Positions 1 through 18,532 of a stretch of DNA of 20,170 nucleotides are shown in pieces. The position numbers were made by a program, and so were the translations under genes. Source of the DNA: a virus; IMG/VR virus record IMGVR_UViG_3300036652_000384, positions 1 to 20,170 of that record; one strand, written 5' to 3'. The notes below the pieces were generated by a model, which was given only the letters and a program-made list of their open reading frames with translations, did no database searches and was not told the DNA's origin. Every line of letters begins with the position of its first letter. The stretch's first letter is position 1.

Positions 1-625
1 CAATTCCAATCAGTTCACCATCGGAGTTAATAACGCCACCGCCGCTGTTTCCTGCTCTTATATTGGCATTGAGTGGTATTTTAGTTCCTGCACTTGCAAG
101 ATGGATTTCAGACACTGTTCCAACAGTTAAATCATATCCTTGGTCAGGATGTCCGATAGTAAAGATGCTTTCACCCACAGTTATATTGGTTGATAATGTT
201 AACGGGTTTCCTATCAAGTCAGGTGCACTGTTTTCTATGACCAACAACGCTAAGTCCTTGTCTTTATCGTACTTTTCTATCGTTAAATAGTGCGATTGAT
301 GGTCTATCGTATTGTAGTAGGCTCCCAAGTCTGTAGCATTGTTAGGGTTATAAACAATGTCTGTGACTACGTGAAAGGCTGTTAGAATGTGACGTTTGTC
401 GATAATAACCCCTGCGCCTATTTCGCCTTGTTTTTTGCTAACGCCGTTCGTTGTGATGGTTTCGTACTGAAATACAATGACAGTGTGATTCTTTAGGTTG
501 TTAATATCCGTTGTCTTTCCTTGATGAATCAATGTGCCTATGGTTAGGGAACCACTGAATGTTGAGGCTTGAACTGAACTGCAAAAAGCAACCCATAGCA
601 ATGCTAATATTAATATAATTTTCAT
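1..625 (-). CDS. Secreted trypsin-like (DegP/HtrA-type) serine protease, C-terminus outside window
   Basis: The reading frame is open to the left edge; 208 residues are visible and there is no stop, so the gene is truncated by the window. Residues 1-20 form a Sec signal peptide: a Lys near the start, a hydrophobic core (IILILALLWVAF) and a likely signal peptidase I site after SVQA. The chymotrypsin-fold triad is complete and in order: His85 in LTAFHVV, Asp124 in KDKDLALL and Ser194 in AGNSGGGV. An intact oxyanion-hole glycine precedes the Ser. No PDZ domain is seen in the visible part. The start has a GGAGA site that overlaps the stop of the preceding fibre gene, so the two are co-transcribed. 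A host-type exported protease at the end of a phage tail-fibre cassette is unusual. It may act on surface proteins during entry or be a lysogenic-conversion gene; the role is inference, the fold assignment is firm. Confidence 0.87.
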   Translation of the reverse strand, partial: MKIILILALLWVAFCSSVQASTFSGSLTIGTLIHQGKTTDINNLKNHTVIVFQYETITTNGVSKKQGEIGAGVIIDKRHILTAFHVVTDIVYNPNNATDLGAYYNTIDHQSHYLTIEKYDKDKDLALLVIENSAPDLIGNPLTLSTNITVGESIFTIGHPDQGYDLTVGTVSEIHLASAGTKIPLNANIRAGNSGGGVINSDGELIGI

Positions 626-633
626 GGTTTCTC

Positions 634-1686
634 CTATCCGCTTACTTTAGCTGATGCTCCGGTAGCTGAACTGTACCAGTTGAATGAACCGTCATTCTTG
701 ATTCTGCCCATTTCAAACTTGGTTACGAAAGTTATGCCTGTATTACCACTTGTATTCGTTCCTGCAATATCTGTCATGCTGGTTGCTCCGCTGATTGTAA
801 TGTCTTTACAAGAAGTGTGACGCATAAAGTACCGTCCAGCAGGAAGTGAGACGGTTGCCGCTGATCCACCTGTTACCGCTTGGAGTGTACTAGGGTTTGC
901 TAAAGTCCCATTTGAAGCAAACGTTGTTGCCGCTTGGGTTGTTCCTGATACTAGTTTTAACGTCTTTCCCGCATTGATAATGATGTTTCCTATGGTATTT
1001 GAATCCCTGATAGTAAGATTAGTACTGTTCGAAGTCACGGTTCCGTAAGTCAGTCCACCGCCGTAAAAATCTGTCCCTGATAGGACGATGGAAGAGGATG
1101 CCCCACTAAATGTAAACCCTGTGACAGTATCACAGAGCCAATTTGCACAGGTAAAGATAGATGCTCCTAGAGTCAACGATCTAGTAGCGGCGTTATTACT
1201 TGTAAATGAAGAACAATTGATCGGGAAATTTCCACTTGTGATGGCGCCGTTCGTTAGCGTAATTCCTTGCGATGTGGCATTAAGCGCATCCTGAAGTGTC
1301 CATCCCCCGCCGACTCCTGCAAATAAAATGCCCGCTGCCCAAGAACCACCTGCACAAGCTATAGTTTTTCCTGTTGATGTAGCGACAAATTTAAAAGTGC
1401 CATTAAATGTCCATGTCATAGCTGCAATTCTTGTTAAATTCCCAAAAACAGACAGCGTTCCATTTCCCGCAAATGTAGGTGTTATTGCCCCTGTAAAATT
1501 TAAACTTAAGCAGCTGATTGTTCCGCTTGTTGTAATGACAGTAGAAGTTCCGCTGAGTCCATCTATAAATACATCATCAGTGCTCGTTGGAACGCTTGCC
1601 CCCCCTGCGCCGCCGCTTGATGAAGCCCAATTCGTTGTCAGTGAAGCGTTCCACGTTCCTGTCCCTACGAAATACCTACTCGCCAT
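634..1686 (-). CDS. Beta-rich tail fibre or spike protein
   Basis: A 350-residue protein very rich in Thr, Ser, Gly, Ala and Asn, with regularly spaced hydrophobic residues typical of a beta-solenoid. The N-terminus (RYFVGTGTWNASLTTNWAS, followed by a Gly/Ala-rich stretch and PTSTDDVFID) resembles a motif common at the start of repetitive phage fibre and surface-adhesin proteins. No enzymatic motif is visible. The C-terminal part (FVTKFEMGRIKNDGSFNWYS) looks like a small globular tip. The start codon follows a weak AGGATGGTG site that begins at the stop codon of the upstream tail fibre, so the two are probably translated as a pair. Likely a receptor-binding or decoration protein on the tail; the exact role is inferred from position and composition. 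Confidence 0.7.
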   Translation of the reverse strand: MASRYFVGTGTWNASLTTNWASSSGGAGGASVPTSTDDVFIDGLSGTSTVITTSGTISCLSLNFTGAITPTFAGNGTLSVFGNLTRIAAMTWTFNGTFKFVATSTGKTIACAGGSWAAGILFAGVGGGWTLQDALNATSQGITLTNGAITSGNFPINCSSFTSNNAATRSLTLGASIFTCANWLCDTVTGFTFSGASSSIVLSGTDFYGGGLTYGTVTSNSTNLTIRDSNTIGNIIINAGKTLKLVSGTTQAATTFASNGTLANPSTLQAVTGGSAATVSLPAGRYFMRHTSCKDITISGATSMTDIAGTNTSGNTGITFVTKFEMGRIKNDGSFNWYSSATGASAKVSG

Positions 1687-1697
1687 ATGTCACCATC

Positions 1698-3032
1698 CTA
1701 TATCTCATATATGACCATTTCTCCTGTTGTTGCATCTTGTTCGATGGAGTATTTACCCCAAAAACTAAGTATTTGCCCTACTGGAATTGCATAGGTTCCA
1801 AGTCCTGTGGGTGATAAAGCTCTGAAAGCAATTAGGTCTGCTGCGCTAATAAATCCTGATTGTGAAGTTGTAGCATCTGGATGCTGACTAGATCCACCAG
1901 CGCCGACATGGGTCAAAGGAGCGGTGTTATTGATTTGCGTCTGAACGTTTGATGTGAGCGTATTGAGATAGCTTAATATCGTATTCGTGACATCTGCATT
2001 CCCGATTGAGGTTGCTGGAATGCCTGTTGGGATATAAGCGACATTGACTATACCGCCGTTTAAATCTGAGGCCGATCTTGTCGTCAAATCTGCTATGCTG
2101 CTCATCGTTTTATCAATTTGAGCAAAGGTATAATCGTTTGTTGCAGCTACTACATTGCCTAACCTGCCGAATACGGAAGGAACAGCATCTGTGTTGTCAA
2201 TTTTCTGCCATATTGTACCGTTAGATACAATCCAATCCCCGACATCGAAACTAATTGTAAACTGCGTTCCTGCTACGCTGACAACATAATAATTCCCTTT
2301 TAAAGTCGTTGGAGTTGCCGTAAGTGTTGGCGTATTCGTTGACGCATTCCAAGCGCCTTGATATTCTAATGCACCTACAACAGCATCAGGCAATTGAGCA
2401 ATAGGTACTTTTGCGCCGCTATCTAGTGAAGCGTATCCGTTAGCTTGAGCTTTTTCTGAGGAAAGCTGTCTAGCCGTAATTTGTGTTTGAGCATTGGATG
2501 AAAGTGAACTAATGTAACTTAATTTTGTATTATCCACATCTGCATTGCCGATAGACGTTGCAGGGATGGCAGTCGGAAACCTAGCTACATTCAATGTTCC
2601 GCTTGACAAGTCGCTTGCTGAGCGAGTGGCTAAGTCTAATAAGCTTGATGCGGTTTTGCTGATCTTTGTCCATGCGATAGCGGCTGAAGCGTTGATGTCT
2701 ATATCTACAATTGAACCATCCAGTATTTTTGCTGAATTTACTGCTCCATCAGCTAACTGTATTGCTGTAATGGTTGCATTGGCTATCTGCGCCGCTGTGA
2801 CTGCCAATAAGTCTAGTTTAGCGGTGGTTACAGCTAAGTCCGCTATATTCGCCGTTGCTATGCCGCCATTCGCTACAAACGCATTGTAGGCTGTTACAAA
2901 GGTATCAAAGTAGGCATAGATTTCATCGAAGCAAGCTTTACGCAAGGCAGGATCTGCGACTTGATCTGTTGCAAGATTTGGGTCAAGCGCGATTAAATTT
3001 GTTTTATTAATCGATGTGACAGGTGTTGTCAT
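1698..3032 (-). CDS. Tail fibre protein with internal duplication
   Basis: A 444-residue fibre-like protein. Residues about 55-120 form a low-complexity Ala/Ile/Thr/Asp-rich stretch with repeated short units, as in fibre shafts. Two hallmark fibre motifs are present: GYASLDSGAKVPIAQLPD and SVFGRLGNVVAATNDYTFAQ. A 60-residue block occurs twice (about residues 126-185 and 308-367), both copies centred on IPATSIGNADV. The N-terminal 50 residues lack repeats and may attach to the tail. The start has an excellent AAAGGAGG site. The gene is preceded by the nozzle-like gene and followed at once by a second fibre gene. It probably forms a trimeric adsorption fibre; family assignment is by motif and context. 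Confidence 0.82.
   Translation of the reverse strand: MTTPVTSINKTNLIALDPNLATDQVADPALRKACFDEIYAYFDTFVTAYNAFVANGGIATANIADLAVTTAKLDLLAVTAAQIANATITAIQLADGAVNSAKILDGSIVDIDINASAAIAWTKISKTASSLLDLATRSASDLSSGTLNVARFPTAIPATSIGNADVDNTKLSYISSLSSNAQTQITARQLSSEKAQANGYASLDSGAKVPIAQLPDAVVGALEYQGAWNASTNTPTLTATPTTLKGNYYVVSVAGTQFTISFDVGDWIVSNGTIWQKIDNTDAVPSVFGRLGNVVAATNDYTFAQIDKTMSSIADLTTRSASDLNGGIVNVAYIPTGIPATSIGNADVTNTILSYLNTLTSNVQTQINNTAPLTHVGAGGSSQHPDATTSQSGFISAADLIAFRALSPTGLGTYAIPVGQILSFWGKYSIEQDATTGEMVIYEI
1932..2111 (-). repeat. Tail fibre 60-codon repeat, copy B
   Basis: Encodes the second copy (KTMSSIADLTTRSASDL to NVQTQI) of a 60-residue block in the tail fibre. By hand alignment 42 of 60 residues match copy A with no gaps. 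IPATSIGNADV is identical in both. Confidence 0.85.
2478..2657 (-). repeat. Tail fibre 60-codon repeat, copy A
   Basis: Encodes the first copy (KTASSLLDLATRSASDL to NAQTQI) of the tail-fibre block repeated at 1932-2111. The copies are much less alike in DNA than in protein, so the duplication is old and kept by selection on the protein. Confidence 0.85.
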
Positions 3033-6506: not shown

Positions 6507-7220
6507 CTACCATTGTTTCATGTAATATTCGGTATCTTCCAATGCGCCTAACAGAAAATACTTTTCCTTGACTAATTGATAATACCCTGCATTCGTTAAG
6601 GCTTTGACTTCTTCTTGCTCGATGTGAAGCAATCTTTTGTTCAATTCCTGCCAACGGTCACTGTATTTTTTTTGGGTTTCCGTCTGCTTCTGTTCTTCAA
6701 ATCCGTATAAATGTGGGGCTTTGAGTAAGTCCGACTCTTTCGGAATCTTCACAATAATACCCATGCCTCGGGCTAATCCAATGAAGTACTCGCACGAAGG
6801 GCGTTGATCCATGTACTCCGATCCTTGCGCCATATCCACGCCGTACAAATGAATCTCCTTGTACCCTTCATCTATTGCCATCGCCAACATCCAACTAATT
6901 GAGTTAGTGAAGTACGTACCGTATTTAGCGGTCATTATAGCTCTTGGATACGATTTTGAGTTCGGAATGTCCTTATGTTGCTCCTGCATGTAAACAGGGC
7001 ATGGTAAGGCTCGTAGACCGTCTAAATAAGTGCCTATTCCGTTTCGTACGGACATTGTTTCTAACTGTTCTCTCGGGTGAATATCGAACCAACGGGTGAT
7101 GTTATCGGCTTTTATTTGAGTGTGAAGGTCGTTCAACCCCCATATTTCAAATTCTTTATTGTTGAATGGTGCTAAATGTAAACTGGAAATGGCAAATCCG
7201 CAAATGGCTACTTTCTTCAT
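6507..7220 (-). CDS. Rossmann-fold protein of unknown function in the virion cassette
   Basis: A 237-residue protein. The start at 7220 is chosen over an upstream in-frame start at 7355 because it has a GAGGAGA site and because a structured intergenic region lies in between. The N-terminus (KKVAICGFAISSLHLAPF) is a Rossmann-type beta-alpha-beta start. It is followed by FEIWGLND and a WFDIH segment, then TNSISWMLAMAIDEGYKEIHLYGVDMA and QRPSCEYFIGLARGMG. This pattern is shared by a family of phage proteins that look like nucleotide- or sugar-nucleotide-binding enzymes related to DUF115/MptE-like and glycosyltransferase-like folds. A Gln/Lys/Glu-rich helical tail (residues 170-230) follows. No catalytic residue can be named with confidence. 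Enzymes are rare among head genes, so it may modify the virion or a nucleotide; that is inference. Confidence 0.66.
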   Translation of the reverse strand: MKKVAICGFAISSLHLAPFNNKEFEIWGLNDLHTQIKADNITRWFDIHPREQLETMSVRNGIGTYLDGLRALPCPVYMQEQHKDIPNSKSYPRAIMTAKYGTYFTNSISWMLAMAIDEGYKEIHLYGVDMAQGSEYMDQRPSCEYFIGLARGMGIIVKIPKESDLLKAPHLYGFEEQKQTETQKKYSDRWQELNKRLLHIEQEEVKALTNAGYYQLVKEKYFLLGALEDTEYYMKQW

Positions 7221-7246
7221 ACATTCTCCTCTGTATCTCCAATGAT

Positions 7247-7300
7247 CGAACGGGAAACAAGTGGAGTCGCTTGCTTGTCGAATGCCTTCTATCCCGTTCG
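7247..7300 (-). other. Intergenic inverted repeat (long stem-loop)
   Basis: The only sizeable gap in the capsid region (7221-7306) holds a perfect 9-bp inverted repeat: CGAACGGGA at 7247-7255 and TCCCGTTCG at 7292-7300. A nested 5-bp repeat (ACAAG/CTTGT, 7257-7261 and 7274-7278) lies inside it. The structure begins 6 nt after the upstream stop. No U-tract follows, so it is not a standard terminator. It may be a processing or stability element between high-expression capsid genes and lower-expression genes. Confidence 0.55.
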
Positions 7301-7306
7301 TTGTAA

Positions 7307-7738
7307 TTAAGAAGTCGTAAATACGACCGATCCAACATTGCCCTTGATGTACCAACGAGTCGTAGAAAGGCTAATCAGGTCTAAACTCGTTGGCCCTGTC
7401 GTTCCGGTGTTCATCGTGGCTATGTTGTTTGTTCCATCAAACGTAGCTCCGCTAGAGTTAATGACAATCGTCAAACTTGTGGTACCTGCCGTAGCAATGA
7501 TAGTCTTGCGGTATCCTGCGGCTGTAGTGTTCCTCGGTGTAGCTAAAGGCTGAGTCAATGTGTAGTAGGCAGCGGCTTGGGTAGAAGAAACCAAAGCCGT
7601 TCCTGCTGATCGCAATGCCGTGCCTGTTGCGCTTGCTGAGGTTCCTGCCACCGTCTGCGGAATGTCGATTGCTCCGTCAAACTGAATATATCCGTCATGG
7701 TCAGACGTAGTAAAATCACTTGGATTTTGTAAGCTCAT
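7307..7738 (-). CDS. Small beta-rich capsid-associated protein
   Basis: A 143-residue protein immediately downstream of the major capsid gene. The start at 7738 is preferred over an upstream in-frame start inside the capsid gene because it has a TAGGAG site at good spacing. The first 30 residues are polar (SLQNPSDFTTSDHDGYIQFDG). The rest is rich in Thr, Ala, Ser and Gly with alternating hydrophobics (KTIIATAGTTSLTIVINSSG, RWYIKGNVGSVVFTT), consistent with a beta-sandwich decoration or head-fibre protein. No enzyme motif is seen. The role is inferred from the position after the coat gene and from composition. Confidence 0.63.
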   Translation of the reverse strand: MSLQNPSDFTTSDHDGYIQFDGAIDIPQTVAGTSASATGTALRSAGTALVSSTQAAAYYTLTQPLATPRNTTAAGYRKTIIATAGTTSLTIVINSSGATFDGTNNIATMNTGTTGPTSLDLISLSTTRWYIKGNVGSVVFTTS

Positions 7739-13569: not shown

Positions 13570-14004
13570 CTAACAATTGCTAAACTGAAATAGTTTCTTA
13601 ATCATAATATTGTAAACAGGTTCGCCTCTGTGGGCTTCGGCATGGCAGAGTTCGCACAAGGTTAGAAGGTTATCTTCCTCGTTAGTTCCGCCATTTTTAC
13701 GGTGAATGATGTGATGAACATGCAGTCCTTGCTTGCTTTTACATTTAGTACACTTAAACTTATCTCTCTTCAATGCCGCTAATCTCTCATCAAGCTTTAG
13801 CTTCTTGGTCGCTTTGTTCTTGCGGTCTTTCTTAATCTTTATGGATGGAAAATCAACTACTGTTATCTCATGGCTTAATCCTTCTTTTAGCTTATTCTTG
13901 ATTACATCAATCTTATCTTCTTCTAAGAATGCGCTCAAACCGCAACATTCTATCCTGTCTCTCGTTGTGAACGAACTATAACAAACTAAGCAGATTCTTA
14001 TCAT
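13570..14004 (-). CDS. HNH endonuclease with zinc-binding cysteines
   Basis: A 144-residue protein. The C-terminal half is a textbook HNH module: CxxC (Cys85, Cys88), VHH (His97-His98), the central Asn112 in DNLLTLC, a second CxxC (Cys117, Cys120) and a final His125 in HAEAH. The N-terminus has further Cys residues (CLVC at 5-8 and CC at 20-21) that may bind a second zinc. HNH proteins encoded next to terminase genes often act with terminase in DNA cutting for packaging; this one lies just after the large terminase gene. Flanking gaps of about 50 and 43 bp, larger than elsewhere in the cassette, also fit a free-standing homing endonuclease. A site AAGGGA precedes the ATG. Confidence 0.85.
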   Translation of the reverse strand: MIRICLVCYSSFTTRDRIECCGLSAFLEEDKIDVIKNKLKEGLSHEITVVDFPSIKIKKDRKNKATKKLKLDERLAALKRDKFKCTKCKSKQGLHVHHIIHRKNGGTNEEDNLLTLCELCHAEAHRGEPVYNIMIKKLFQFSNC

Positions 14005-17986: not shown

Positions 17987-18517
17987 TTATGCTATGACTC
18001 TTTTAGCCCCTACAAATGAGCTAAAACTGGGTGCTGCGTCGCTGATATGAAACGTTTGCGGTACGGCGTTGGTGTGCAGCATTTGTCCGTTGCCTATGCA
18101 GATCGCTACGTGTGTTGTTGCATTGACCGTTGCGTAATACTTAAAGAATAATAAATCTCCTGGCTGTACGTCGTTCCAACCTACTGGCGTTCCTACCGTG
18201 AATTGTTGATAGCTCGTTCTCGGTAAAACGATCCCGAAATGGCCGTATAGTGATTCTGTAAAGAAAGAACAATCTTCACCTAGAGAGCTACTACCACCAA
18301 ACAAATATGGAATCTTGGTAGCTGCCCAACTCTTGCCTGACGTTATGAGATCGTGTACCAATTGTTCTCTTGGCGTTAATATCTGATCCTGCGCGGTCTT
18401 TAATTCCTGCCGTAATTCAATGTCGGCCGCGTTCTGACTGTCTATGAGTTTTAAAGCTACATCCAACTTTGCTTGTAAATCGGTTATAAATGCTTCCACT
18501 GGGTCTAGTATTTGCAT
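17987..18517 (-). CDS. NlpC/P60-family peptidoglycan hydrolase (probable endolysin)
   Basis: A 176-residue protein. The start at 18517 has AAAGGAG 8 nt upstream; an in-frame GTG at 18526 is less likely. Residues 5-45 form a helical, coiled-coil-like N-terminus. The rest is an NlpC/P60 domain: IPYLFGGSSSLGEDCSFF with catalytic Cys83, VQPGDLLFF, then TTHVAICIG with His136 and MLHT with His148, a complete Cys-His-His set. The usual WGG is FGG here and the residue after Cys-Ser is Phe. Such enzymes cut gamma-D-Glu-diamino-acid bonds in peptide stems. There is no signal peptide or cell-wall-binding module and no holin gene in the window. Position in a tRNA/late operon suggests lysis; a virion-associated role is possible. 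Confidence 0.82.
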   Translation of the reverse strand: MQILDPVEAFITDLQAKLDVALKLIDSQNAADIELRQELKTAQDQILTPREQLVHDLITSGKSWAATKIPYLFGGSSSLGEDCSFFTESLYGHFGIVLPRTSYQQFTVGTPVGWNDVQPGDLLFFKYYATVNATTHVAICIGNGQMLHTNAVPQTFHISDAAPSFSSFVGAKRVIA

Positions 18518-18532
18518 GCTGTCCACTCCTTT

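Follow-up and report, generated by a model that had tools for sequence, protein, structure and literature searches.

The window analysed here, by which we mean the whole stretch of 20,170 bases, is an entire IMG/VR record, and the 5' part of a protease gene runs off its left edge, next to a cassette of tail-fibre genes (Table 1). The encoded protein matches Trypsin_2 (PF13365; E 1.3e-19) with its residues 70-208 spanning all 144 positions of the profile, scores 71.8 bits against the curated cut-off of 27.6, and is also matched by the Pfam Trypsin family. The triad residues H85, D124 and S194 are read directly from the DNA and do not vary across two alignments (15 and 30 rows, almost all phage-encoded), which bears out the intact His-Asp-Ser triad claimed when the DNA had been read without database searches (the sequence-only reading). 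The solved structures closest by sequence are HtrA/Deg proteases. PHROG 9683 (E 2e-11), 11383 (E 7e-14) and 13651 (E 2e-7) are also matched, although these are broad profile matches and only the first carries the function label 'protease'. Judged from its sequence, the gene encodes an S1-fold trypsin-like enzyme with intact catalytic residues.

Table 1. Features at the left end of the window (positions are those of the window)
Feature	Position	Strand	Basis
Trypsin-like serine protease, predicted to be exported, 5' part, 208 aa	2..625	minus	ORF, ATG start, open at left edge
Predicted signal peptide, residues 1-20, predicted cleavage between VQA and ST	566..625	minus	sequence; shuffle-tested hydropathy; similar N-termini of the G001 and L081 copies
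Catalytic His85 codon	371..373	minus	invariant alignment column
Catalytic Asp124 codon	254..256	minus	invariant alignment column
Catalytic Ser194 codon (GNSGG)	44..46	minus	invariant alignment column
Ribosome-binding site AGGAG, overlapping fibre gene stop TAG (634-636)	631..635	minus	sequence
Upstream neighbour, 350 aa, last gene of fibre cassette, about 51% identical to G001 counterpart	634..1686	minus	
444-aa tail/fibre protein	1698..3032	minus	PHROG tail and tail-fibre matches

The N-terminus of the protease, MKIILILALLWVAFCSSVQA followed by STF, contains a single lysine and a hydrophobic core, followed by an AxA-like cleavage site, and sequence, hydropathy and shuffle test together give the n/h/c-region pattern of a signal peptide. 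A strong N-terminal hydrophobic segment is present in only one of the 23 window genes tested, namely the protease, whose 12-residue hydropathy of 3.20 compares with 1.61 in the next gene and was reached by 39 of 20,000 shuffles of the protein. The signal peptide noted earlier can thus be retained as a Sec-type, signal-peptide-like N-terminus, from which export is predicted.

The gap between the last fibre gene and the protease start is 8 nt, and the TAG stop of the fibre gene overlaps the AGGAG ribosome-binding site, so that the description of the two genes as translationally close was accurate. Given this geometry, the protease is probably translationally coupled with the fibre genes. A consensus scan around the protease found no excess of promoter-like or terminator-like sites over shuffled sequence. 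The G+C content of the protease gene (0.397) is the lowest of the window genes tested, the whole window standing at 0.440.

Since the window is a complete record, the 3' end of the gene cannot be read from it, and a scan with the protease peptide together with an exact pattern search for the left edge found no contig overlapping that edge; the identical contig IMGVR_UViG_3300037069_001022 ends near 6.3 kb of the window. An AlphaFold model of the fragment (pLDDT 77.8) aligns with HtrA-fold proteases at Z 19 up to about residue 215 of about 252 in DegS; the missing part therefore comprises the last strands and a helix, plus any PDZ domain. From the alignments with DegS and with the complete relative described below, about 35 residues are estimated to lie beyond the left edge.

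The closest phage with a complete copy, G001 (IMGVR_UViG_3300046373_000072, 49.7 kb), is 85% identical to the window in the major capsid protein (MCP), 72% in the portal and 77% in a tail protein. Its trypsin-like gene (L004:4020-4751) encodes 243 aa with the full triad and a predicted signal peptide, MKKIILILILFLTFSETAHA followed by IT, and its model (pLDDT 80.5) aligns with HtrA proteases, DegS among them, at Z about 26. The double beta-barrel is complete in this relative, whereas the window fragment ends before the last strands. The two proteins share 38% identity over 177 columns, and synonymous sites are saturated between the two copies in the dN/dS comparison. A maximum-likelihood tree built from 30 protease domains, most of them viral, groups the two together on a long branch (support 100/99). 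The gene positions are nevertheless different: in G001 the protease lies upstream of terS, in the same orientation and followed by one small ORF, while a 751-aa ORF takes its place downstream of the fibre gene. The supported pair and the differing positions therefore describe a distinct subfamily now found at two positions, as would follow either from movement within the lineage or from separate uptake from related donors.

The distribution of the gene was assessed with a capsid-profile scan that gave 80 loci of the phage group; these loci were then searched with an HMM, and 49 whole records with Pfam. One further protease was recovered (L081:5862-6536; 224 aa, signal-like N-terminus), lying 135 bp behind a gene whose 597-aa product has a virion-structural match. 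The protease is thus present in three of 51 capsid-group records (the window, G001 and L081), a lower bound as records may be fragments, and it is absent from records longer than 40 kb with 61-74% MCP identity, e.g., G403, G404, G406-G409 and G425. It is an accessory gene of the phage group. Neither a PDZ domain nor an anchor domain was found by Pfam in the complete copies of G001 and L081, and the window gene is cut before the point at which a PDZ domain would begin; with an end like that of its nearest relative, the window protease would likewise be without PDZ.

A profile scan of viral contigs yielded 37 protease loci, about a dozen of which encode proteases of 222-246 aa that begin with a hydrophobic or lipoprotein-like segment and are too short to accommodate a PDZ domain. 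These short proteases neighbour terL (L032, L047), terL-like genes (L051, L062) or portal genes (L044, L053), with tail genes beside others, and L044 carries a separate head-maturation-protease-like gene beside the predicted exported trypsin. In L043, L046 and L058 an SLH-type domain, weak and below cut-off in L058, stands in place of the signal. The L043 copy lies between tail genes and a holin and M23 endolysin, directly upstream of these two lysis genes, and possibly represents a wall-bound lysis protease. Genes of the late region make up a large share of any phage genome, and adjacency to late genes is taken here as suggestive only. Four pairs of related phage proteases, one of them PDZ-bearing, show dN/dS of 0.07-0.21, and comparable phage protease genes are therefore under purifying selection. 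The three SLH-trypsin genes (L043:4776-5579, L046:4767-5573 and L058:1210-1977) all lack a signal peptide. A separate set of HtrA-like proteases of 363-366 aa with a signal peptide (L033-L036, L039, L040 and L042, with PDZ shown for L033) is spread over at least seven viral contigs of different metagenomic origin.

Searches elsewhere gave only distant matches. The scan of bacterial genomes for direct homologues returned two HtrA-like loci only; the one examined in detail, L008, is a chromosomal HtrA with a long C-terminus. Among 398 Bacillota genomes one related prophage was detected (G073), and the protease matches of G073 lie only on another contig. Phage and plasmid collections gave matches at about 24-34% identity only, several of which are annotated HtrA/Deg genes in records labelled phage. 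The 'periplasmic serine protease' of Felix O1 was set aside as an unrelated head protease of the Peptidase_S49/ClpP class. An anti-phage defence protease was likewise rejected, as the PADLOC matches (RT-Protease_XI, PDC-M35A, LmuA, Avs1b) were partial and domain-level only, none being full length. The open-licence literature searched yielded no functional work on phage trypsins that are exported.

With HtrA/DegP/DegS (PF13365) the phage proteins share the fold (Z 26 for G001 and Z 19 for the window fragment), the order of the triad and, by prediction, export; in contrast, the G001 and L081 copies have no PDZ match and the phage genes lie in a late cluster. The NCBIfam cut-offs of all HtrA models are also far from reached, with 50.8 bits of the required 416 for the window protein, partly because it is a fragment, and at best 72.2 of 250 for the complete G001 protein. 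Protein p036 ('protease') of Rhizobium phage 16-3 and its relatives in Sinorhizobium phages resemble the window protein as phage-encoded trypsin-type domains behind a signal-like N-terminus; their translations show no evident PDZ. However, p036 is distant, being reached through the L062 homologue and not by the window protein; its neighbours are small, uncharacterised genes, some 3 kb past the tail fibres, and its serine motif is GQSG. Since p036 already joins a trypsin domain to a signal-like N-terminus, the window protease belongs to an already known type, and the interest of the gene lies in its probable coupling to the fibre genes and in the recurrence of such proteases in late clusters. 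The SLH-trypsins of L043, L046 and L058 resemble the window protein in having a trypsin domain, PDZ-less in their case, in a late cluster, but bear the SLH domain instead of a signal peptide and are not close relatives in the tree. LysBT1, the endolysin of a Brevibacillus prophage, offers a parallel for these analogues alone: this lysis enzyme carries an SLH domain and targets walls that bear an S-layer, but it is an amidase and not a protease (PMC12285257).

We propose that the gene encodes a short HtrA/DegS-type serine protease and shares a late transcript with the tail-fibre genes. The product would be exported via the host Sec pathway, and outside the membrane it would cleave envelope or surface proteins of the host, be it the S-layer, wall-associated proteins or the phage receptor. 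Lysis and release could thereby be helped, and progeny prevented from adhering to debris or infecting the dying cell a second time; the protease gene would be a dispensable fitness gene occupying differing late-region positions. We give about an even chance to this proposal of an enzyme that is produced together with the fibres, leaves by the Sec route and acts on envelope proteins late in infection, where timing, export, activity, substrate and benefit are what we infer. It is supported by the domain and triad, the signal-like N-termini of the window, G001 and L081 copies, the 8-nt spacing and the lack of a nearby promoter or terminator beyond chance expectation. Further support comes from the late neighbours in G001 and L081, the three-in-51 distribution, the similar PDZ-less proteases beside terL, portal and tail genes, the context of the L043 gene and the dN/dS values. 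Against it stand the incompleteness of the window gene and the SLH-protease of L043, which has no signal peptide and is an analogue only. The varying late positions in a few related phages suggest action at the host surface late in infection rather than virus building, and a host-surface role of the protease is plausible. As a candidate substrate the S-layer is attractive, because it can bar an endolysin from its peptidoglycan substrate (PMC12285257).

Capsid maturation was already disfavoured by the sequence-only reading, and this contrast holds. Maturation proteases are commonly encoded in the late region of phages and portal or capsid genes are close to some of the homologous copies, yet a head-maturation enzyme would be conserved with the capsid genes of the group and cytoplasmic, whereas this gene is optional, varies in position, carries a predicted signal peptide and is missing in most relatives with 61-74% identical capsid proteins. 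Its presence in three of 51 records is therefore incompatible with an essential role in capsid maturation, and since L044 has a distinct gene resembling head-maturation proteases, a function in the maturation of capsid or tail is highly improbable. A role in the virion, as a part of the tail that degrades surface proteins while the phage attaches, would suit a gene whose neighbours are the fibre genes in the window and, for L081, a virion structural gene; a protein with a cleavable signal peptide would, however, leave the cell before assembly, and the G001 copy is not near tail genes, which makes this clearly unlikely. Decay into a non-functional remnant, broken beyond the left edge, could be suspected from the slightly low G+C and from a record that ends before the 3' end of the gene. 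We regard it as quite improbable in view of 208 codons without a stop, a perfect triad, a ribosome-binding site and a predicted signal peptide.

Lysogenic conversion deserves more attention, although it too appears rather unlikely. In that case a protease made by the lysogen (a moron product) would alter its surface or digest external protein, to the benefit of the host or to the exclusion of other phages. The large serine recombinase of G001 indicates that the group is probably temperate, the gene is accessory, and its G+C is the lowest of those tested, all of which would suit a moron. Conversely, promoter-like and terminator-like sites nearby are at shuffle level in the consensus scan, the overlap of fibre stop and ribosome-binding site ties the protease to the late transcript, and the neighbours in G001 and L081 are late genes as well. 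The earlier interpretation therefore stands as to a predicted exported, trypsin-like enzyme with intact catalytic residues and little likelihood of a capsid-maturation role, but nothing specifically favours the expression in lysogens that it had also considered.

If the proposed late, exported activity is true, some phages would attack envelope protein enzymatically at the end of infection, outside the usual holin/endolysin picture, with relevance for S-layer-bearing hosts and for superinfection exclusion. Exported and maturation proteases of phages, two kinds that automatic annotation is prone to lump together, would also be set apart, and the complete G001 gene makes the idea testable. It can be speculated more widely, with considerable doubt, that phages have repeatedly recruited short exported or wall-binding trypsins into late clusters as a further class of lysis and release proteins, stripping envelope protein layers or receptors alongside holins and endolysins.

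Further genes of the window and G001 are worth recording. In G001, a 246-aa protein with a predicted signal peptide and a Cu_amine_oxidN1 domain (L005:3051-3791, minus strand) is encoded 42 bp from the large serine recombinase (L005:1581-3008) and is a candidate lysogenic-conversion gene in the integration module. The listed matches of the recombinase are mostly phages of Bacillales, and only from these matches and the Cu-amine-oxidase-N-type secreted protein may a Gram-positive host be presumed. The stretch upstream of terS holds the predicted exported protease in G001 and an NlpC/P60 peptidase in the window (17987-18526, minus strand; E 8e-20), which is without a signal peptide and lies between a sigma-like gene and terS. 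A protein of roughly 260-280 aa without a Pfam match is encoded between the capsid and adaptor genes of the window (6507-7355, minus strand), and no counterpart of that size is listed at the same place in G001. Genes judged by eye to be HNH-endonuclease-like are found between portal and terminase in the window (13570-14004, minus strand) and before a tail gene in G001 (L002:9225-9965), and given these different places they are likely mobile insertions.
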